This document shows positions 1 through 18,407 of a stretch of DNA of 64,000 nt, piece by piece. Numbering within the stretch: the first letter of the stretch is position 1; each line of letters begins with the position of its first letter. Source of the DNA: Odiellus spinosus. Lineage: Eukaryota; Arthropoda; Arachnida; Opiliones; Phalangiidae. The DNA is taken from positions 124,001 to 188,000 of the forward strand of contig OY987240.1 in NCBI GenBank assembly GCA_963920705.1, read 5' to 3'. The notes under the pieces are model-generated. The model was not told the origin of the DNA and searched no databases. It saw nothing but the letters and a program-made list of their open reading frames with translations. The position numbers were made by a program, and so were the translations under genes.

Positions 1-384
1 TTGTTTTTTAGATTTACCAATATTTGCTCTTTCGAGTGGTCTTAATTTTGTCTAAATCGCTTCAAAATCAAAAGTTTTGTGTCCATTTGAATCCAATAAT
101 CTTGGATTTTTAAGCGTTTTTGCTTAATTTTAACCAATTTTATATTTGTCACAATTTTGCAATTTAGACAAAACCAAAATCATTCGAAAGAGCAATTAAT
201 GGACAGTCTAAATAATAAGAGTTTTCAAAAATCCGTTGAAAAACAAGAAAAATATGGCCAATTCAAGAAATCATACAATATCAAAATAGTCAAATTTCAG
301 CTTTTAAAAATTCGCTTTTTGATATTAGATGTTTTTTGAATTGGCCATATTTTCCATGTTTTTCAACGGATTTTCCAAAACTCT
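1..384. repeat. Leading monomer, cut by the window start
   Basis: Landmark at 199. It carries GATTTACC in H2, CGCTTCAAAATC and TTTTATATTTGTCACAATTTTGC, the marker set also found at 1919-2302 and 4605-4988. The offset to 1919 is 1918 bp (five monomers), whereas the same marker set is not found one 2686-bp period away. This unit therefore belongs to a shorter, 5-monomer version of the HOR that follows. Confidence 0.8.
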
Positions 385-3070
385 TGTTTTTTAGATAGAC
401 CAATATTTGCTCTTTCGAGTGGTCTTAATTTTGTCTAAATCGCTTAAAAATCAAAAGTTTTGTGTCCATTTGAATCCAATAATCTTGGATTTTTAAGCGT
501 TTTTGCTTAATTTTAACCAATTTTGATATTTGTCACGTTTTGGCAATTTAGACAAAACCAAAGTCATTCGAAAGAGCAATTAATCGACAGTCTAAATAAT
601 AAGAGTTTTCAAAAATCCGTTGAAAAACAAGAAAAATATGGCCAATTCAAGAAATCATACAATATCAAAATAGTCAAATTTCAGATTTTAAAAATTCGCT
701 TTTTGATATTAGATGTTTTTTGAATTGGCCATATTTTCCATGTTTTTCAACGGATTTTACAAATTTCTTGTTTTTTAGATAGACCAATATTTGCTCTTTC
801 GAGTGGTCTTAATTTTGTCTAAATCGCTTAAAAATCAAAAGTTTTGTGTCCATTTGAATCCAATAATCTTGGATTTTTAAGCGTTTTTGCTTAATTTTAA
901 CCAATTTTGATATTTGTCACGTTTTGGCAATTTAGACAAAACCAAAGTCATTCGAAAGAGCAATTAATGGACAGTCTAAATAATAAGAGTTTTCAAAAAT
1001 CCGTTGAAAAACAAGAAAAATATGGCCAATTCAAGAAATCATACAATATCAAAATAGTCAAATTTCAGATTTTAAAAATTGGCTTTTTGATATTAGATGT
1101 TTTTTGAATTGGCTGTATTTTCCATGTTTTTCAACGGATTTTCCAAAACTCTTGTTTTTTAGATTTACCAATATTTGCTCTTTCGAGTGGTCTTAATTTT
1201 GTCTAAATCGCTTCAAAATCAAAAGTTTTGTGTCCATTTGAATCCAATAATCTTGGATTTTTAAGCGTTTTTGCTTAATTTTAACCAATTTTATATTTGT
1301 CACAATTTTGCAATTTAGACAAAACCAAAATCATTCGAAAGAGCAATTAATGGACAGTCTAAATAATAAGAGTTTTCAAAAATCCGTTGAAAAACAAGAA
1401 AAATATGGCCAATTCAAGAAATCATACAATATCAAAATAGTCAAATTTCAGATTTTAAAAATTCGCTTTTTGATTTTAGATGTTTTTTGAATTGGCCATA
1501 TTTTCCATGTTTTTCAACGAATTTTCCAAAACTCTTGTTTTTTAGATAGACCAATATTTGCTCTTTCGAGTGGTCATAATTTTGTCTAAATCGCTTAAAA
1601 ATCAAAAGTTTTGTGTCCATTTGAATCCAATAATCTTGGATTTTTAAGCGTTTTTGCTTAATTTTAACCAATTTTGATATTTGTCACGTTTTGGCAATTT
1701 AGACAAAACCAAAGTCATTCGAAAGAGCAATTAATGGACAGTCTAAATAATAAGAGTTTTCAAAAATCCGTTGAAAAACAAGAAAAATATGGCCAATTCA
1801 AGAAATCATACAATATCAAAATAGTCAAATTTCAGATTTTAAAAATTCGCTTTTTGATATTAGATGTTTATTGAATTGGCTGTATTTTCCATGTTTTTCA
1901 ACGGATTTTCCAAAACTCTTGTTTTTTAGATTTACCAATATTTGCTCTTTCGAGTGGTCTTAATTTTGTCTAAATCGCTTCAAAATCAAAAGTTTTGTGT
2001 CCATTTGAATCCAATAATCTTGGATTTTTAAGCGTTTTTGCTTAATTTTAACCAATTTTATATTTGTCACAATTTTGCAATTTAGACAAAACCAAAATCA
2101 TTCGAAAGAGCAATTAATGGACAGTCTAAATAATAAGAGTTTTCAAAAATCCGTTGAAAAACAAGAAAAATATGGCCAATTCAAGAAATCATACAATATC
2201 AAAATAGTCAAATTTCAGCTTTTAAAAATTCGCTTTTTGATATTAGATGTTTTTTGAATTGGCCATATTTTCCATGTTTTTCAACGGATTTTCCAAAACT
2301 CTTGTTTTTTAGATAGACCAATATTTGCTCTTTCGAGTGGTCTTAATTTTGTCTAAATCGCTTAAAAATCAAAAGTTTTGTGTCCATTTGAATCCAATAA
2401 TCTTGGATTTTTAAGCGTTTTTGCTTAATTTTAACCAATTTTGATATTTGTCACGTTTTGGCAATTTAGGCAAAACCAAAGTCATTCGAAAGAGCAATTA
2501 ATGGACAGTCTAAATAATAAGAGTTTTCAAAAATCCGTTGAAAAACAAGAAAAATATGGCCAATTCAAGAAATCATACAATATCAAAATAGTCAAATTTC
2601 AGATTTTAAAAATTCGCTTTTTGATATTAGATGTTTTTTGAATTGGCCATATTTTCCATGTTTTTCAACGGATTTTCCAAATTTCTTGTTTTTTAGATAG
2701 ACCAATATTTGCTCTTTCGAGTGGTCTTAATTTTGTCTAAATCGCTTAAAAATCAAAAGTTTTGTGTCCATTTGAATCCAATAATCTTGGATTTTTAAGC
2801 GTTTTTGCTTAATTTTAACCAATTTTGATATTTGTCACGTTTTGGCAATTTAGACAAAACCAAAGTCATTCGAAAGAGCAATTAATGGACAGTCTAAATA
2901 ATAAGAGTTTTCAAAAATCCGTTGAAAAACAAGAAAAATATGGCCAATTCAAGAAATCATACAATATCAAAATAGTCAAATTTCAGATTTTAAAAATTCG
3001 CTTTTTGATATTAGATGTTTTTTGAATTGGCCATATTTTCCATGTTTTTCAACGGATTTTCCAAATTTCT
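385..3070. repeat. 7-mer higher-order repeat, copy 1 (2686 bp)
   Basis: Landmarks 583, 967, 1350, 1734, 2117, 2501, 2885. Diagnostic bases recur 2686 bp later: GGATTTTACAAATTTC (751 and 3437), ATTGGCTTTTTG (1079 and 3765), GGCTGTATTTT (1112/1879 and 3798/4565), GATTTACC (1161/1929 and 3847/4615) and GTGGTCATAATT (1570 and 4256). Private changes include ATCGACAG at 583 and AGGCAAAACC at 2469. The left edge is set by AAAACTC here versus AAATTTC in copy 2. Confidence 0.88.
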
Positions 3071-5756
3071 TGTTTTTTAGATAGACCAATATTTGCTCTT
3101 TCGAGTGGTCTTAATTTTGTCTAAATCGCTTAAAAATCAAAAGTTTTGTGTCCATTTGAATCCAATAATCTTGGATTTTTAAGCGTTTTTGCTTAATTTT
3201 AACCAATTTTGATATTTGTCACGTTTTGGCAATTTAGACAAAACCAAAGTCATTCGAAAGAGCAATTAATGGACAGTCTAAATAATAAGAGTTTTCAAAA
3301 ATCCGTTGAAAAACAAGAAAAATATGGCCAATTCAAGAAATCATACAATATCAAAATAGTCAAATTTCAGATTTTAAAAATTCGCTTTTTGATATTAGAT
3401 GTTTTTTGAATTGGCCATATTTTCCATGTTTTTCAACGGATTTTACAAATTTCTTGTTTTTTAGATAGACCAATATTTGCTCTTTCGAGTGGTCTTAATT
3501 TTGTCTAAATCGCTTAAAAATCAAAAGTTTTGTGTCCATTTGAATCCAATAATCTTGGATTTTTAAGCGTTTTTGCTTAATTTTAACCAATTTTGATATT
3601 TGTCACGTTTTGGCAATTTAGACAAAACCAAAGTCATTCGAAAGAGCAATTAATGGACAGTCTAAATAATAAGAGTTTTCAAAAATCCGTTGAAAAACAA
3701 GAAAAATATGGCCAATTCAAGAAATCATACAATATCAAAATAGTCAAATTTCAAATTTTAAAAATTGGCTTTTTGATATTAGATGTTTTTTGAATTGGCT
3801 GTATTTTCCATGTTTTTCAACGGATTTTCCAAAACTCTTGTTTTTTAGATTTACCAATATTTGCTCTTTCGAGTGGTCTTAATTTTGTCTAAATCGCTTC
3901 AAAATCAAAAGTTTTGTGTCCATTTGAATCCAATAATCTTGGATTTTTAAGCGTTTTTGCTTAATTTTAACCAATTTTATATTTGTCACAATTTTGCAAT
4001 TTAGACAAAACCAAAATCATTCGAAAGAGCAATTAATGGACAGTCTAAATAATAAGAGTTTTCAAAAATCCGTTGAAAAACAAGAAAAATATGGCCAATT
4101 CAAGAAATCATACAATATCAAAATAGTCAAATTTCAGATTTTAAAAATTCGCTTTTTGATTTTAGATGTTTTTTGAATTGGCCATATTTTCCATGTTTTT
4201 CAACGAATTTTCCAAAACTCTTGTTTTTTAGATAGACCAATATTTGCTCTTTCGAGTGGTCATAATTTTGTCTAAATCGCTTAAAAATCAAAAGTTTTGT
4301 GTCCATTTGAATCCAATAATCTTGGATTTTTAAGCGTTTTTGCTTAATTTTAACCAATTTTGATATTTGTCACGTTTTGGCAATTTAGACAAAACCAAAG
4401 TCATTCGAAAGAGCAATTAATGGACAGTCTAAATAATAAGAGTTTTCAAAAATCCGTTGAAAAACAAGAAAAATATGGCCAATTCAAGAAATCATACAAT
4501 ATCAAAATAGTCAAATTTCAGATTTTAAAAATTCGCTTTTTGATATTAGATGTTTTTTGAATTGGCTGTATTTTCCATGTTTTTCAACGGATTTTCCAAA
4601 ACTCTTGTTTTTTAGATTTACCAATATTTGCTCTTTCGAGTGGTCTTAATTTTGTCTAAATCGCTTCAAAATCAAAAGTTTTGTGTCCATTTGAATCCAA
4701 TAATCTTGGATTTTTAAGCGTTTTTGCTTAATTTTAACCAATTTTATATTTGTCACAATTTTGCAATTTAGACAAAACCAAAATCATTCGAAAGAGCAAT
4801 TAATGGACAGTCTAAATAATAAGAGTTTTCAAAAATCCGTTGAAAAACAAGAAAAATATGGCCAATTCAAGAAATCATACAATATCAAAATAGTCAAATT
4901 TCAGCTTTTAAAAATTCGCTTTTTGATATTAGATGTTTTTTGAATTGGCCATATTTTCCATGTTTTTCAACGGATTTTCCAAAACTCTTGTTTTTTAGAT
5001 AGACCAATATTTGCTCTTTCGAGTGGTCTTAATTTTGTCTAAATCGCTTAAAAATCAAAAGTTTTGTGTCCATTTGAATCCAATAATCTTGGATTTTTAA
5101 GCGTTTTTGCTTAATTTTAACCAATTTTGATATTTGTCACGTTTTGGCAATTTAGACAAAACCAAAGTCATTCGAAAGAGCAATTAATGGACAGTCTAAA
5201 TAATAAGAGTTTTCAAAAATCCGTTGAAAAACAAGAAAAATATGGCCAATTCAAGAAATCATACAATATCAAAATAGTCAAATTTCAGATTTTAAAAATT
5301 CGCTTTTTGATATTTGATGTTTTTTGAATTGGCCATATTTTCCATGTTTTTCAACGGATTTTCCAAATTTCTTGTTTTTTAGATAGACCAATATTTGCTC
5401 TTTCGAGTGGTCTTAATTTTGTCTAAATCGCTTAAAAATCAAAAGTTTTGTGTCCATTTGAATCCAATAATCTTGGATTTTTAAGCGTTTTTGCTTAATT
5501 TTAACCAATTTTGATATTTGTCACGTTTTGGCAATTTAGGCAAAACCAAAGTCATTCGAAAGAGCAATTAATGGACAGTCTAAATAATAAGAGTTTTCAA
5601 AAATCCGTTGAAAAACAAGAAAAATATGGCCAATTCAAGAAATCATACAATATCAAAATAGTCAAATTTCAGATTTTAAAAATTCGCTTTTTGATATTAG
5701 ATGTTTTTTGAATTGGCCATATTTTCCATGTTTTTCAACGGATTTTCCAAATTTCT
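3071..5756. repeat. 7-mer higher-order repeat, copy 2 (2686 bp)
   Basis: Landmarks 3269, 3653, 4036, 4420, 4803, 5187, 5571. It repeats the marker order of copy 1 in register. Private differences include TTCAAATTTTAAAAATTGG near 3752, GATATTTGATG near 5310, and AGGCAAAACC at 5539, which in copy 1 falls one monomer earlier. The copies are close but not identical. Confidence 0.86.
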
Positions 5757-7449
5757 TGTTTTTTAGATAGACCAATATTTGCTCTTTCGAGTGGTCTTAA
5801 TTTTGTCTAAATCGCTTAAAAATCAAAAGTTTTGTGTCCATTTGAATCCAATAATCTTGGATTTTTAAGCGTTTTTGCTTAATTTTAACCAATTTTGATA
5901 TTTGTCACGTTTTGGCAATTTAGACAAAACCAAAGTCATTCGAAAGAGCAATTAATGGACAGTCTAAATAATAAGAGTTTTCAAAAATTCGTTGAAAAAC
6001 AAGAAAAATATGGCCAATTCAAGAAATCATACAATATCAAAATAGTCAAATTTCAGATTTTAAAAATTCGCTTTTTGATATTAGATGTTTTTTGAATTGG
6101 CCATATTTTCCATGTTTTTCAACGGATTTTCCAAATTTCTTGTTTTTTAGATAGACCAATATTTGCTCTTTCGAGTGGTCTTAATTTTGTCTAAATCGCT
6201 TAAAAATCAAAAGTTTTGTGTCCATTTGAATCCAATAATCTTGGATTTTTAAGCGTTTTTGCTTAATTTTAACCAATTTTGATATTTGTCACGTTTTGGC
6301 AATTTAGACAAAACCAAAGTCATTCGAAAGAGCAATTAATGGACAGTCTAAATAATAAGAGTTTTCAAAAATCCGTTGAAAAACAAGAAAAATATGGCCA
6401 ATTCAAGAAATCATACAATATCAAAATAGTCAAATTTCAGATTTTAAAAATTCGCTTTTTGATATTAGATGTTTTTTGAATTGGCCATATTTTCCATGTT
6501 TTTCAACGGATTTTCCAAATTTCTTGTTTTTTAGATAGACCAATATTTGCTCTTTCGAGTGGTCTTAATTTTGTCTAAATCGCTTAAAAATCAAAAGTTT
6601 TGTGTCCATTTGAATCCAATAATCTTGGATTTTTAAGCGTTTTTGCTTAATTTTAACCAATTTTGATATTTGTCACGTTTTGGCAATTTAGGCAAAACCA
6701 AAGTCATTCGAAAGAGCAATTAATGGACAGTCTAAATAATAAGAGTTTTCAAAAATCCGTTGAAAAACAAGAAAAATATGGCCAATTCAAGAAATCATAC
6801 AATATCAAAAAAAAAAATTTCAGATTTTAAAAATTCGCTTTTTGATATTAGATGTTTTTTGAATTGGCCATATTTTCCATGTTTTTCAACGGATTTTCCA
6901 AATTTCTTGTTTTTTAGATAGACCAATATTTGCTCTTTCGAGTGGTCTTAATTTTGTCTAAATCGCTTAAAAATCAAAAGTTTTGTGTCCATTTGAATCC
7001 AATAATCTTGGATTTTTAAGCGTTTTTGCTTAATTTTAACCAATTTTGATATTTGTCACGTTTTGGCAATTTAGACAAAACCAAAGTCATTCGAAAGAGC
7101 AATTAATGGACAGTCTAAATAATAAGAGTTTTCAAAAATCTGTTGAAAAACAAGAAAAATATGGCCAATTCAAGAAATCATACAATATCAAAATAGTCAA
7201 ATTTCAGATTTTAAAAATTCGCTTTTTGATATTAGATGTTTTTTGAATTGGCCATATTTTCCATGTTTTTCAACGGATTTTCCAAATTTCTTGTTTTTTA
7301 GATAGACCAATATTTGCTCTTTCGAGTGGTCTTAATTTTGTCTAAATCGCTTAAAAATCAAAAGTTTTGTGTCCATTTGAATCCAATAATCTTGGATTTT
7401 TAAGCGTTTTTGCTTAATTTTAACCAATTTTGATATTTGTCACGTTTTG

Positions 7450-7577
7450 GCAATTTAGACAAAACCAAAGTCATTCGAAAGAGCAATTAATGGACAGTCT
7501 AAATAATAAGAGTTTTCAAAAATCCGTTGAAAAACAAGAAAAATATGGCCAATTCAAGAAATCATACAATATCAAAA
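7450..7577 (+). repeat. Left arm H1 of the dyad (reference copy)
   Basis: This 128-bp arm runs from GCAATTTAGACAAAA to AATATCAAAA. It is the inverted partner of 7608-7734. By hand alignment about 105 of 128 positions match, with one gap. The longest exact blocks are AAAATCCGTTGAAAAACA and AAAATATGGCCAATTCAA (18 bases each) and TCGAAAGAGCAA (12 bases). Across the window this arm looks like the most constant part of the monomer: most changes in its first 70 bases are private to single copies. It contains an open frame rich in Lys, Gln and Asn, which I do not regard as coding. Confidence 0.9.
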
Positions 7578-7607
7578 TAGTCAAATTTCAGATTTTAAAA
7601 ATTCGCT
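7578..7607. repeat. Centre (loop) of the monomer dyad
   Basis: These 30 bases lie between the two inverted arms and would be the loop if one strand folded. The middle holds the palindrome TTTTAAAA. The flanks AATATCAAAA and TTTTGATATT pair with each other and close the stem. Variant copies carry GATTTTAG in place of GATATTAG just after the loop, or a T for A in CAGATT. Confidence 0.85.
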
Positions 7608-7734
7608 TTTTGATATTAGATGTTTTTTGAATTGGCCATATTTTCCATGTTTTTCAACGGATTTTCCAAATTTCTTGTTTTTTAGATAGACCAATATTTG
7701 CTCTTTCGAGTGGTCTTAATTTTGTCTAAATCGC
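7608..7734 (-). repeat. Right arm H2 of the dyad, inverted copy of H1
   Basis: Read on the minus strand, this arm runs GCGATTTAGACAAAA to AATATCAAAA and parallels H1 along its full length. It carries most of the array's subtype markers. These are GAGTGGTCTT, GAGTGGTCAT, GGAGTGGTCTT or GATACGTGTTG next to CTCTTT; AAAACTC or AAATTTC; GATAG or GATTTA; and GGCCATATT, GGCTATATT or GGCTGTATT. On the minus strand it gives a 66-81 codon open frame resembling the frame in H1, as expected for an inverted copy. Confidence 0.9.
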
Positions 7735-7763
7735 TTAAAAATCAAAAGTTTTGTGTCCATTTG

Positions 7764-7782
7764 AATCCAATAATCTTGGATT
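7764..7782. repeat. Small dyad 1 in the spacer: AATCCAA / TTGGATT
   Basis: A perfect 7-bp inverted repeat around a 5-base loop (TAATC). It is present in type A spacers throughout the window. Type B spacers have TTTGATT as the right arm, which breaks one pair. Type D spacers delete the right arm. It could form a small cruciform or an RNA hairpin; no function can be read from the sequence. Confidence 0.75.
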
Positions 7783-7783
7783 T

Positions 7784-7801
7784 TTAAGCGTTTTTGCTTA
7801 A
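7784..7801. repeat. Small dyad 2 in the spacer: TTAAGC / GCTTAA
   Basis: A perfect 6-bp inverted repeat around GTTTTT, two bases downstream of dyad 1. Type B (TTAGCTTCA) and type C (AAAGTG with GCTTATTTT) spacers weaken it. Together with dyad 1 it makes the spacer a pair of adjacent small hairpins next to the large arm dyad. Confidence 0.7.
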
Positions 7802-8790
7802 TTTTAACCAATTTTGATATTTGTCACGTTTTGGCAATTTAGACAAAACCAAAGTCATTCGAAAGAGCAATTAATGGACAGTCTAAATAATAAGAGTTTT
7901 CAAAAATCCGTTGAAAAACAAGAAAAATATGGCCAATTCAAGAAATCATACAATATCAAAATAGTCAAATTTCAGATTTTAAAAATTCGCTTTTTGATAT
8001 TAGATGTTTTTTGAATTGGCCATATTTTCCATGTTTTTCAACGGATTTTCCAAATTTCTTGTTTTTTAGATAGACCAATATTTGCTCTTTCGAGTGGTCT
8101 TAATTTTGTCTAAATCGCTTAAAAATCAAAAGTTTTGTGTCCATTTGAATCCAATAATCTTGGATTTTTAAGCGTTTTTGCTTAATTTTAACCAATTTTG
8201 ATATTTGTCACGTTTTGGCAATTTAGGCAAAACCAAAGTCATTCGAAAGAGCAATTAATGGACAGTCTAAATAATAAGAGTTTTCAAAAATCCGTTGAAA
8301 AACAAGAAAAATATGGCCAATTCAAGAAATCATACAATATCAAAATAGTCAAATTTCAGATTTTAAAAATTCGCTTTTTGATATTAGATGTTTTTTGAAT
8401 TGGCCATATTTTCCATGTTTTTCAACGGATTTTCCAAATTTCTTGTTTTTTAGATAGACCAATATTTGCTCTTTCGAGTGGTCTTAATTTTGTCTAAATC
8501 GCTTAAAAATCAAAAGTTTTGTGTCCATTTGAATCCAATAATCTTGGATTTTTAAGCGTTTTTGCTTAATTTTAACCAATTTTGATATTTGTCACGTTTT
8601 GGCAATTAAGACAAAACCAAAGTCATTCGAAAGAGCAATTAATGGACAGTCTAAATAATAAGAGTTTTCAAAAATCCGTTGAAAAACAAGAAAAATATGG
8701 CCAATTCAAGAAATCATACAATATCAAAATAGTCAAATTTCAGATTTTAAAAATTCGCTTTTTGATTTTAGATGTTTTTTGAATTGGCCA

Positions 8791-11700
8791 TATTTTCCAT
8801 GTTTTTCAACGAATTTTCCAAAACTCTTGTTTTTTAGATAGACCAATATTTCCTCTTTCGAGTGGTCTTAATTTTGTCTAAATCGCTTCAAAATCAAATG
8901 TTTTGTGTCCATTTGAATCCAATAATGTTTGATTTTTAAGCGTTTTAGCTTCATTTCAACCCATTTTATATTTGTCACGTTTTGGCAATTTAGACAAAAC
9001 CAAAGTCATTCGAAAGAGCAATTAATGGACAGTCTAAATAATAAGAGTTTTCAAAAATCCGTGGAAAAACAAGAAAAATATGGCCAATTCAAGAAATCAT
9101 ACAATATCAAAATAGTCAAATTTCAGATTTTAAAAATTCGCTTTTTGATATTAGATGTTTTTTGAATTGGCCATATTTTCCATGTTTTTCAACGGATTTT
9201 CCAAAACTCTTGTTTTTTAGATAGACCAATATTTGGTCTTTCGAGTGGTCTTAATTTTGTCTAAATCGCTTAAAAATCAAAAGTTTTGTGTCCATTTGAA
9301 TCCAATAATCTTGGATTTTTAAGCGTTTTTGCTTAATTTTAACCAATTTTATATTTGTCACGTTTAGGCAATTTAGACAAAACCAAAGTCATTCGAAAGA
9401 GAAATTAATGGACAGTCTAAATAATAAGTTTTCAAAAATCCGTTGAAAAACAAGAAAAATATGGCCATTTCAAGAAATCATACAATATCAAAATAGTCAA
9501 ATTTCAGATTTTAAAAATTCGCTTTTTGATATTAGATGTTTTTTGAATTGGCTATATTTTCCATGTTTTTCAACGGATTTTCCAAAACTCTTGTTTTTTA
9601 GATAGACCAATATTTGCTCTTTCGAGTGGTCTTAATTTTGCCTAAATCGCTTAAAAATCAAACGTTTTGTGTCCATTTGAATCCAATAATCTTGGATTTT
9701 TAAGCGTTTTTGCTTAATTTTAACCAATTTTGATATTTGTCACGTTTTGGCAATTTAGACAAAACCAAAGTCATTCGAAAGAGCAATTAATGGACAGTCT
9801 AAATAATAAGAGTTTTCAAAAATCTGTTGAAAAACAAGAAAAATATGGCCAATTCAAGAAATCATACAATATCAAAATAGTCAAATTTCAGATTTTAAAA
9901 ATTCGCTTTTTGATTTTAGATGTTTTTTGAATTGGCCATATTTTCCATGTTTTTCAACGAATTTTCCAAAACTCTTGTTTTTTAGATAGACCAATATTTG
10001 CTCTTTCGAGTGGTCTTAATTTTGTCTAAATCGCTTCAAAATCAAATGTTTTGTGTCCATTTGAATCCAATAATGTTTGATTTTTAAGCGTTTTAGCTTC
10101 ATTTCAACCCATTTTATATTTGTCACGTTTTGGCAATTTAGACAAAACCAAAGTCATTCGAAAGAGCAATTAATGGACAGTCTAAATAATAAGAGTTTTC
10201 AAAAATCTGTTGAAAAACAAGAAAAATATGGCCAATTCAAGAAATCATACAATATCAAAATAGTCAAATTTCAGATTTTAAAAATTCGCTTTTTGATTTT
10301 AGATGTTTTTTGAATTGGCCATATTTTCCATGTTTTTCAACGAATTTTCCAAAACTCTTGTTTTTTAGATAGACCAATATTTGCTCTTTCGAGTGGTCTT
10401 AATTTTGTCTAAATCGCTTCAAAATCAAATGTTTTGTGTCCATTTGAATCCAATAATGTTTGATTTTTAAGCGTTTTAGCTTCATTTCAACCCATTTTAT
10501 ATTTGTCACGTTTTGGCAATTTAGACAAAACCAAAGTCATTCGAAAGAGCAATTAATGGACAGTCTAAATAATAAGAGGTTTCAAAAATCCGTTGAAAAA
10601 CAAGAAAAATATGGCCAATTCAAGAAATCATACAATATCAAAATAGTCAAATTTCTGATTTTAAAATTCGCTTTTTGATATTAGATGTTTTTTGAATTGG
10701 CCATATTTTCCATGTTTTTCAACGGATTTTCCAAAACTCTTGTTTTTTAGATAGACCAATATTTGGTCTTTCGAGTGGTCTTAATTTTGTCTAAATCGCT
10801 TAAAAATCAAAAGTTTTGTGTCCATTTGAATCCAATAATCTTGGATTTTTAAGCGTTTTTGCTTAATTTTAACCAATTTTATATTTGTCACGTTTAGGCA
10901 ATTTAGACAAAACCAAAGTCATTCGAAAGAGCAATTATGGACAGTCTAAATAATAAGTTTTCAAAAATCCGTTGAAAAACAAGAAAAATATGGCCATTTC
11001 AAGAAATCATACAATATCAAAATAGTCAAATTTCAGATTTTAAAAATTCGCTTTTTGATATTAGATGTTTTTTGAATTGGCTATATTTTCCATGTTTTTC
11101 AACGGATTTTCCAAAACTCTTGTTTTTTAGATAGACCAATATTTGCTCTTTCGATACGTGTTGATTTTGTCTAAATCGCTTTAAAATCAAAAGTTTTGTT
11201 TCCATTTGAATCCAATAATGTTTGATTTTTAAGCGTTTTAGCTTCATTTCAACCCATTTTATATTTGTCACGTTTTTGCAATTTAGACAAAACCAAAGTC
11301 ATTCGAAAGAGCAATTAATGGACAGTCTAAATAATAAGAGTTTTCAAAAATTCGTTGAAAAACAAGAAAAATATGGCCAATTCAAGAAATCATACAATAT
11401 CAAAATAGTCAAATTTCTGATTTTAAAAATTCGCTTTTTGATTTTAGATGTTTTTTGAATTGGCCATATTTTCCATGTTTTTCAACGGATTTTCCAAATT
11501 TCTTGTTTTTTAGATAGACCAATATTTGCTCTTTCGAGTGGTCTTAATTTTGTCTAAATCGCTTAAAAATCAAAAGTTTTGTGTCCATTTGAATCCAATA
11601 ATCTTGGATTTTTAAGCGTTTTTGCTTAATTTTAACCAATTTTGATATTTGTCACGTTTTGGCAATTTAGACAAAACCAAAGTCATTCGAAAGAGCAATT

Positions 11701-17400: not shown

Positions 17401-17838
17401 ACGTTTTGGCAATTTAGACAAAACCAAAGTCATTCGAAAGAGCAATTAATGGACAGTCTAAATAATAAAAGTTTTCAAAAATCCGTTGAAAAACAAGAAA
17501 AATATGGCCAATTCAACAAATCATACAATATCAAAATAGTCAAATTTCAGATTTTAAAAATTCGCTTTTTGATATTAGATGTTTCTTGAATTGGCCATAT
17601 TTTCCAGGTTTTTCAACGGATTTTCCAAAACTCTTGTTTTTTAGATAGACCAATATTTGCTTTTTCGAGTGGTCTTAATTTTGTCTAAATCGCTTCAAAA
17701 TCAAATGTTTTGTGTCCATTTGAATCCAATAATGTTTGATTTTTAAGCGTTTTAGCTTCATTTCAACCCATTTTATATTTGTCACGTTTTGGCAATTTAG
17801 ACAAAACCAAAGTCATTCGAAAGAGCAATTAATGGACA
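17401..17838. repeat. 569-bp duplication, copy 1 ending in a half-deleted monomer
   Basis: Landmarks 17449 and 17832. AATAATAAAAG, TTCAACAAATC, GTTTCTTGAAT, CCAGGTTTTTC and TGCTTTTTCGAG all recur exactly 569 bp later, 1.5 monomers downstream. The segment ends within H1 of the second monomer, where ATGGACA is joined directly to ATATTTGCTCTTTCG of an H2 arm. Confidence 0.88.
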
Positions 17839-17854
17839 ATATTTGCTCTTTCGA
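17817..17854. repeat. Half-monomer deletion junction forming a short perfect hairpin
   Basis: H1 is joined to H2 with the whole dyad centre lost, about 198 bp. The landmark step here is 185 instead of 383. The join leaves TCGAAAGAGCAA (17817-17828) and its exact inverted copy TTGCTCTTTCGA (17843-17854) around a 14-base loop. The two source sequences share CA at the breakpoint, a 2-bp microhomology. I saw no second copy of this junction in the window. Confidence 0.88.
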
Positions 17855-18407
17855 TACGTGTTGATTTTGTCTAAATCGCTTAAAAATCAAATGTTTTTTT
17901 TCCATTTGAATCCAATAATGTTTGATTTTTAAGTGTTTTAGCTTCATTTCAACCCATTTTATATTTGTCACGTTTTGGCAATTTAGACAAAACCAAAGTC
18001 ATTCGAAAGAGCAATTAATGGACAGTCTAAATAATAAAAGTTTTCAAAAATCCGTTGAAAAACAAGAAAAATATGGCCAATTCAACAAATCATACAATAT
18101 CAAAATAGTCAAATTTCAGATTTTAAAAATTCGCTTTTTGATATTAGATGTTTCTTGAATTGGCCATATTTTCCAGGTTTTTCAACGGATTTTCCAAAAC
18201 TCTTGTTTTTTAGATAGACCAATATTTGCTTTTTCGAGTGGTCTTAATTTTGTCTAAATCGCTTCAAAATCAAATGTTTTGTGTCCATTTGAATCCAATA
18301 ATGTTTGATTTTTAAGCGTTTTAGCTTCATTTCAACCCATTTTATATTTGTCACGTTTTGGCAATTTAGACAAAACCAAAGTCATTCGAAAGAGCAATTA
18401 ATGGACA
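17839..18407. repeat. 569-bp duplication, copy 2
   Basis: The segment repeats the markers of copy 1, including AATAATAAAAG near 18030, GTTTCTTGAAT near 18150 and CCAGGTTTTTC near 18171. Identity by offset 569 is clear from about 17970 to 18407. The first part, 17839-17969, is the remaining H2 and a type B spacer from another monomer, including TGTTTTTTTTCC near 17893. Confidence 0.82.

Follow-up and report, generated by a model that had tools for sequence, protein, structure and literature searches.

The monomer of an AT-rich satellite in Odiellus spinosus is a diverged inverted duplication repeated head to tail, and this dyad is probably, for the most part, the fossil of a fold-back duplication which is older than the array and was amplified by ordinary satellite turnover. 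We examined a 64,000-bp stretch, referred to here as the window, which covers positions 124001–188000 of contig C18 in the 443-Mb, 286-contig genome and is wholly taken up by a tandem array of this satellite with a period of 383/384 bp (TRF). The satellite belongs to a known, uncommon class with inversely oriented subunits. The following features were identified in the window:

1 to 64000, plus strand throughout: satellite array in 383/384-bp units (TRF, BLAST pieces).
7450 to 7833, plus strand: one complete 384-bp monomer, matched at 100% identity by further copies in the array.
7450 to 7577, plus strand: arm H1, 128 bp.
7578 to 7607, strand not applicable: dyad centre, 30 bp.
7608 to 7734, minus strand: arm H2, 127 bp, an inverted and diverged copy of H1 by its alignment to H1.
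7728 to 7794 (7728–7746 and 7776–7794): small second inverted repeat, 19 nt at 89%, spanning the H2 edge and the spacer; a minor feature.
7735 to 7833: spacer, 98 bp in the consensus and 99 bp in this 384-bp copy, outside the large dyad.
17792 to 17977, plus strand: shortened unit of 186 bp, detected by both TRF and BLAST; a single case.

In C18:1–258000, all 630 non-overlapping best BLAST placements were on the plus strand. Of these, 619 gave monomer starts and delimited 618 stretches, from which the 608 with a length of 340–420 bp were used and 10 were excluded for odd length. Their majority consensus was 383 bp and consisted of H1 (128), the centre (30), H2 (127) and the spacer (98). Mean pairwise identity among the 608 monomers was 95.3% (sampled), and nearest-neighbour identity in the array averaged 99.7% (40 sampled). 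Within the window, BLAST gave 170 plus-strand pieces, including cut ends, and TRF reported copy numbers of 46.5 and 121, which agree with the number of about 168 hairpins proposed in the initial annotation; the hairpins themselves are predicted from the sequence and are only potential. No known RNA family was detected in the window with Rfam at gathering thresholds, and six short strings, five from the satellite and one from the neighbouring 14-bp repeat, had no match in open-licence papers.

The global alignment of H1 with the reverse complement of H2 showed 106 identical columns out of 128 in the consensus, and 104 out of 128 in the copy at 7450–7734. Thus, the 22 mismatches or gaps counted earlier by hand are exact for the consensus, whereas that copy has 24 differences. 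The alignment score of 144 was far above those obtained when H2 was dinucleotide-shuffled 2000 times (mean −42.5, SD 11.2, maximum −1.0; z 16.7), so the arms align much better than shuffled sequence. Similarly, the local score of the consensus against its own reverse complement was 281, while 2000 shuffles gave a mean of 30.4 (SD 6.3, maximum 71; z 39.9), and every one of the 166 whole monomers in the window exceeded the shuffle maximum, the lowest scoring 211. An independent inverted-repeat search placed the arms at 7445–7561 and 7623–7739, with 117 ungapped nt that were 80% complementary. The description of the array as head-to-tail copies of a diverged inverted duplication is therefore borne out, both in the consensus and in all whole monomers of the window.

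The spacer showed no dyad of its own above chance, with a self-reverse-complement score of 24 that was equalled by 774 of 2000 shuffles, and a two-axis palindrome spanning the whole monomer was ruled out on this basis. It also showed no convincing likeness to the arms, its best score being 26 for the reversed spacer against H2, while 500 shuffles peaked at 26. The hairpin of the small 19-nt inverted repeat appeared in the predicted fold of the monomer. That the arm likeness ends at the spacer would also be in line with an old element of MITE type, bounded by long terminal inverted repeats, that was amplified after its capture together with 98 bp of neighbouring DNA; the size and shape of the 285-bp dyad would suit a MITE. 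Nevertheless, inspection by eye revealed no target-site duplication at the arm edges, and we find such an origin very doubtful.

To place the satellite in the genome, a 25-base tag was searched with up to 2 mismatches and was found 38,578 times in forward and 36,994 times in reverse orientation, i.e. about 75,600 copies. If one tag represents one unit, the satellite occupies about 28.9 Mb, or about 6.5% of the 443-Mb assembly. It is unevenly spread, as the 35.4-Mb contig C1 had 5 exact tag matches among the matches listed, while C5, C6 and C18 hold arrays.

Several other observations were made during the genome-wide searches. Short (TCAGG)n blocks were present at C1:80–415, C1:35426935 and C2:34482245, and also on C3, C4, C6 and C7; those of C1 and C2 were about 7 kb from the contig ends, and those of C4 and C6 were on both strands. 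TCAGG is described as the telomere repeat of Cucujiform beetles in passages of PMC8233369 and PMC9498494. An assignment of these blocks as a beetle telomere was dropped, because at the start of C1 the block lies within the contig and consists of (TCAGG) and (CCTGA) repeats arranged head to head. A search for the telomerase RBD had no match, nor had its control, so it is uninformative. Nine COX1 match rows with TGA in frame, two of them overlapping, were found on C17 and look as if they were clustered nuclear copies of mitochondrial DNA; a COX1 frame reads through under table 5. An alpha-amylase exon scored 128 bits against PDB chains named Alpha-amylase A, which we take to be from Drosophila, and 93 bits against the 1clv/1jae/1tmq chain, presumably from Tenebrio; there is a second amylase locus in the genome. 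Hemocyanin_M had 0 matches and 7tm_6 had 1 match in the genome, and the control genomes were also without a match for either family, so these two counts carry little weight. Overall, the amylase scores and family counts lean weakly away from a tenebrionid, and the parallel with tenebrionid beetles need not hold for this genome.

As single-stranded DNA, the 285-nt dyad was predicted to fold to −76.6 kcal/mol, and 0 of 200 shuffles were as stable (mean −24.1, SD 3.3 kcal/mol; z −15.8). A functional role for dyads was proposed for dyad-rich centromeric satellites. Here, a hairpin or cruciform formed by the monomer would help to load centromeric or heterochromatic proteins, and the stable predicted fold, the high abundance and the long arrays are consistent with this, as is the inverted symmetry on several scales, which resembles that reported for Tribolium madens in the part of PMC13081366 available. 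However, the variation among copies and the distribution of the satellite, with 35.4-Mb C1 set against the arrays on C5, C6 and C18, argue otherwise, and we consider a functional dyad quite unlikely.

Arm divergence was 0.187 substitutions per site (JC) as compared with about 0.049 between array copies, which makes the duplication several times as old as the copies now in the array. Mismatches between the arms were also stable, with 468 unique copies retaining on average 20.5 of 21 consensus mismatches (range 18–21). Double changes at matched pairs showed no compensatory excess among the array copies, with 13 observed and 13.4 expected, so compensatory pairing of the arms was unsupported; 5 of the 13 were still Watson-Crick, while slid controls gave 13–26 double changes and 5–17 Watson-Crick ones. 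Hairpin-templated correction from arm to arm was likewise unsupported, since 29 of 71 variant types at mismatch sites restored pairing when 28.0 were expected (318 of 1038 when counted by cells, a raw count with no expectation). Variability at matched arm sites was not below that of the spacer (median frequency 0.0064 vs 0.0043; p 0.16 and 0.53). The absence of a compensatory excess and of arm correction, together with paired sites whose conservation does not exceed that of the spacer, is the reason for reading the dyad as a fossil.

On the other side, variability was lower at matched than at mismatched arm sites (p 0.014 and 0.007), an outcome that a functional dyad would explain; pairing constraint or site heterogeneity would each account for this difference. 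Variation within the genome may be compatible with the stem being weakly constrained, or with constraint that acts on stem shape instead of sequence. H2 varied more among copies than H1, by a factor of about 2.6 (mean 0.033 vs 0.013). The shortened 186-bp unit lacks about monomer positions 48–242, a loss of hairpin size that is nearly symmetric about the dyad axis, suggesting that the hairpin could form at times and was possibly excised. None of the 25 commonest deletion runs in the array monomers crosses the dyad axis.

Under the fossil reading, a sequence of about 128–140 bp would have been copied as an inverted duplicate next to itself, perhaps through fold-back or template-switch. The arms then diverged, and the differences in 22 of 128 columns are shared by almost all copies. 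Together with the 98-bp spacer, the two arms would have been multiplied as head-to-tail units, giving very long arrays through ordinary satellite turnover, either unequal exchange or rolling circle. The dyad could extrude as a hairpin, and present copies give no sign that pairing of the arms is maintained. Any role would rather be at the level of the array, as heterochromatin or candidate (peri)centromeric DNA, which we infer solely from abundance and array size.

The 9.9-Mb contig C18 opens with 9.0 kb (1–9020) of a 14-bp repeat, ATTTGAAAAACATG, in about 644 copies, and this block directly adjoins the satellite. Its 14 bases are those of the satellite segment ATCCGTTGAAAAACATG (reverse strand of consensus positions 197–213) minus CCG, thus the minisatellite may stem from a satellite arm. 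A three-unit tag of the repeat, searched with up to 1 mismatch and with overlaps counted, was found 13,464 + 18,616 times genome-wide. From there, the plus orientation of the satellite runs for about 420 kb, to about C18:430.6 kb according to probes; the contig was read whole to 258 kb, and all 9 probes beyond, at 258–430 kb, were plus. This subarray is interrupted at C18:67.9–72.1 kb and 83.0–88.6 kb, where the longest frames are 116 and 91 aa, respectively.

The orientation changes at a retroelement, located at about C18:430.6–432.8 kb, with a 593-aa frame that matches the reverse transcriptase domain PF00078 (RVT_1; E 4.1e-12) and with a tRNA-like piece. A GIY-YIG-like stretch at its end leads us to call the element Penelope-like; no GIY-YIG domain was reported for it by Pfam at E 0.001. 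Beyond the retroelement, 18 of 18 satellite probes up to 1.0 Mb were in minus orientation, over at least about 565 kb (10 of 10 at 450–1000 kb and 8 of 9 at 432–448 kb, the ninth falling in the retroelement itself), and a 10-kb stretch read whole at C18:546–556 kb consisted of satellite in minus. Among its 24 monomers there were five identical pairs, with a distance of 12 units in three of them and of 10 and 3 units in the other two, which hints at higher-order repeats about 4.6 kb long. The satellite was absent from 9 probes at 1.1–1.9 Mb and from one at 2.0 Mb of C18. Past the array, at C18:1.1–1.3 Mb, 5S rRNA matches were detected with Rfam in all 3 scanned probes.

This is the only array orientation switch read, in assembled sequence, and it may be an assembly misjoin. 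The 24 minus monomers matched each other best at 99.75% and the 608 plus monomers at 98.29%. Plus monomers taken in blocks of 25 showed 98.7–99.6% within blocks, 97.9–99.4% to plus monomers more than 60 kb away and 96.8–98.4% to the 24 minus monomers. A recent mirror copy as the source of this macro-dyad is thus unsupported in the 10 kb of minus array compared, because minus monomers are closer to each other. Since the plus blocks are locally homogeneous too, part of the clustering of minus monomers is ordinary local turnover.

Apart from the long arrays, small satellite clusters with repeated spacings were located by exact tags on C2, C3, C4 and C5, among the matches listed. One of them, C2:8466750–8470200, is inverted on itself across 3442 bp at 96.3%; each arm holds satellite pieces and monomers with a hairpin-bearing insert, about 149-bp tandem repeats lie on the outside, and a central loop of about 150 bp separates the arms. 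The centre junction of this block recurred on 9 contigs, at 14 places in all, 13 of them exact matches and the other with a single mismatch. The C2 block is the one copy that was read, and the other evidence for the 149-bp repeat is by tags in 9 of the 14 copies: all 9 copies on C1–C7 were flanked by exact tags of the repeat, in plus on the left and in minus on the right, with 3–9 tags per side and none misoriented among the matches listed. The insert tag was found 39 times, including 5 inverted pairs 1665–1667 or 1284–1285 bp apart; many of its other copies have different bases past the edge of the insert and could represent separate insertion events. The 14 places may also be segmental duplications.

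These blocks look like a putative foldback transposon that would either have acquired the satellite in the distant past or have a common origin with it. Perhaps the satellite itself descends from such a transposon, with monomers in the inverted arms amplified into arrays by the route described for Tetris and TIR-220. The monomers inside both arms of the 3.44-kb stretch on C2 with the 149-bp repeats outside, the 14 recurrences of the centre junction, the mirrored tags in 9 of 9 copies and the insert pairs at recurring distances would all suit this descent. Yet tags for the 149-bp repeat, the insert and the centre junction each had 0 exact matches on either strand of the C18:1–258000 array, and six element pieces matched array monomers at best at 94.0–97.3%, in contrast to the 99.7% between array neighbours. 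Capture of the satellite by the element fits the data equally well, so we regard descent from a foldback transposon as possible but unlikely; it is compatible with reading the monomer dyad as a fossil.

This satellite was inversely symmetric at three scales: the 128-bp arms of the monomer, the element arms of about 1.65 kb or more, and the subarrays of about 420 kb and longer. It is conceivable, though we hold it to be rather unlikely, that the foldback element carries the satellite to new sites and gives rise to switches in orientation, so that a single fold-back process, acting repeatedly and possibly in a lineage other than Tribolium, would have produced the dyads at all three scales.

Palindromic satellites could be under selection for hairpin formation or could simply be left over from the way they arose, and this question is open. 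The tens of thousands of copies of this satellite make it testable from sequence alone, and those we examined favour a relic. If confirmed, an orientation switch between subarrays hundreds of kb long, in possibly another lineage, would extend array-level dyads beyond Tribolium, and the dispersed foldback-like blocks offer a concrete vehicle linking transposition with the spread of a satellite.

The initial annotation had described satellites of this kind as uncommon and known from tenebrionid beetles, in agreement with the available part of PMC13081366. There, the closest system is that of Tribolium madens TmSat2 and TmSat1, which shares with ours a palindrome-like monomer (in TmSat2, with inverted repeats of about 300 bp in 704 bp), inverted subarrays and nested dyad levels; the conjunction of satellite and microsatellite is a theme of that text as well. 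TmSat2, as described there, is made entirely of related 59–113-bp subunits, whereas the Odiellus satellite has one arm pair and a spacer. T. madens is also reported to have thousands of conserved inversion sites, while here one switch was seen, between subarrays of hundreds of kb and with a retroelement at the switch. By description in the same source, the 1061-bp satellite of Tribolium brevicornis shares long inverted segments, but with arms of about 470 bp rather than 128 bp and another monomer length, and the 385-bp satellite of the wasp Trichogramma brassicae has a nearly equal monomer length and internal inverted repeats, although these are of 80 bp. Macro-dyads of up to 75 kb are given in that part as documented only in Tribolium, and in the available part of PMC13427858 the term macro-dyad appears solely in the reference list.

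The foldback-like blocks resemble the Tetris foldback transposon of Drosophila virilis and its TIR-220 satellite as presented in part of PMC4079207, i.e. a dispersed element with long inverted arms and variable numbers of tandem repeats that also form satellite arrays. In Tetris, one arm repeat family becomes the satellite, whereas here the repeat of about 149 bp is on the outside and the abundant satellite on the inside, and our blocks resemble the foldback class in their inverted arms, tandem repeats and recurrence. Inverted-subunit satellites, array-level dyads in Tribolium and a link from foldback element to satellite in Tetris are each already published; the additions made here to the known class are a very long orientation switch and foldback-like blocks that carry the satellite.
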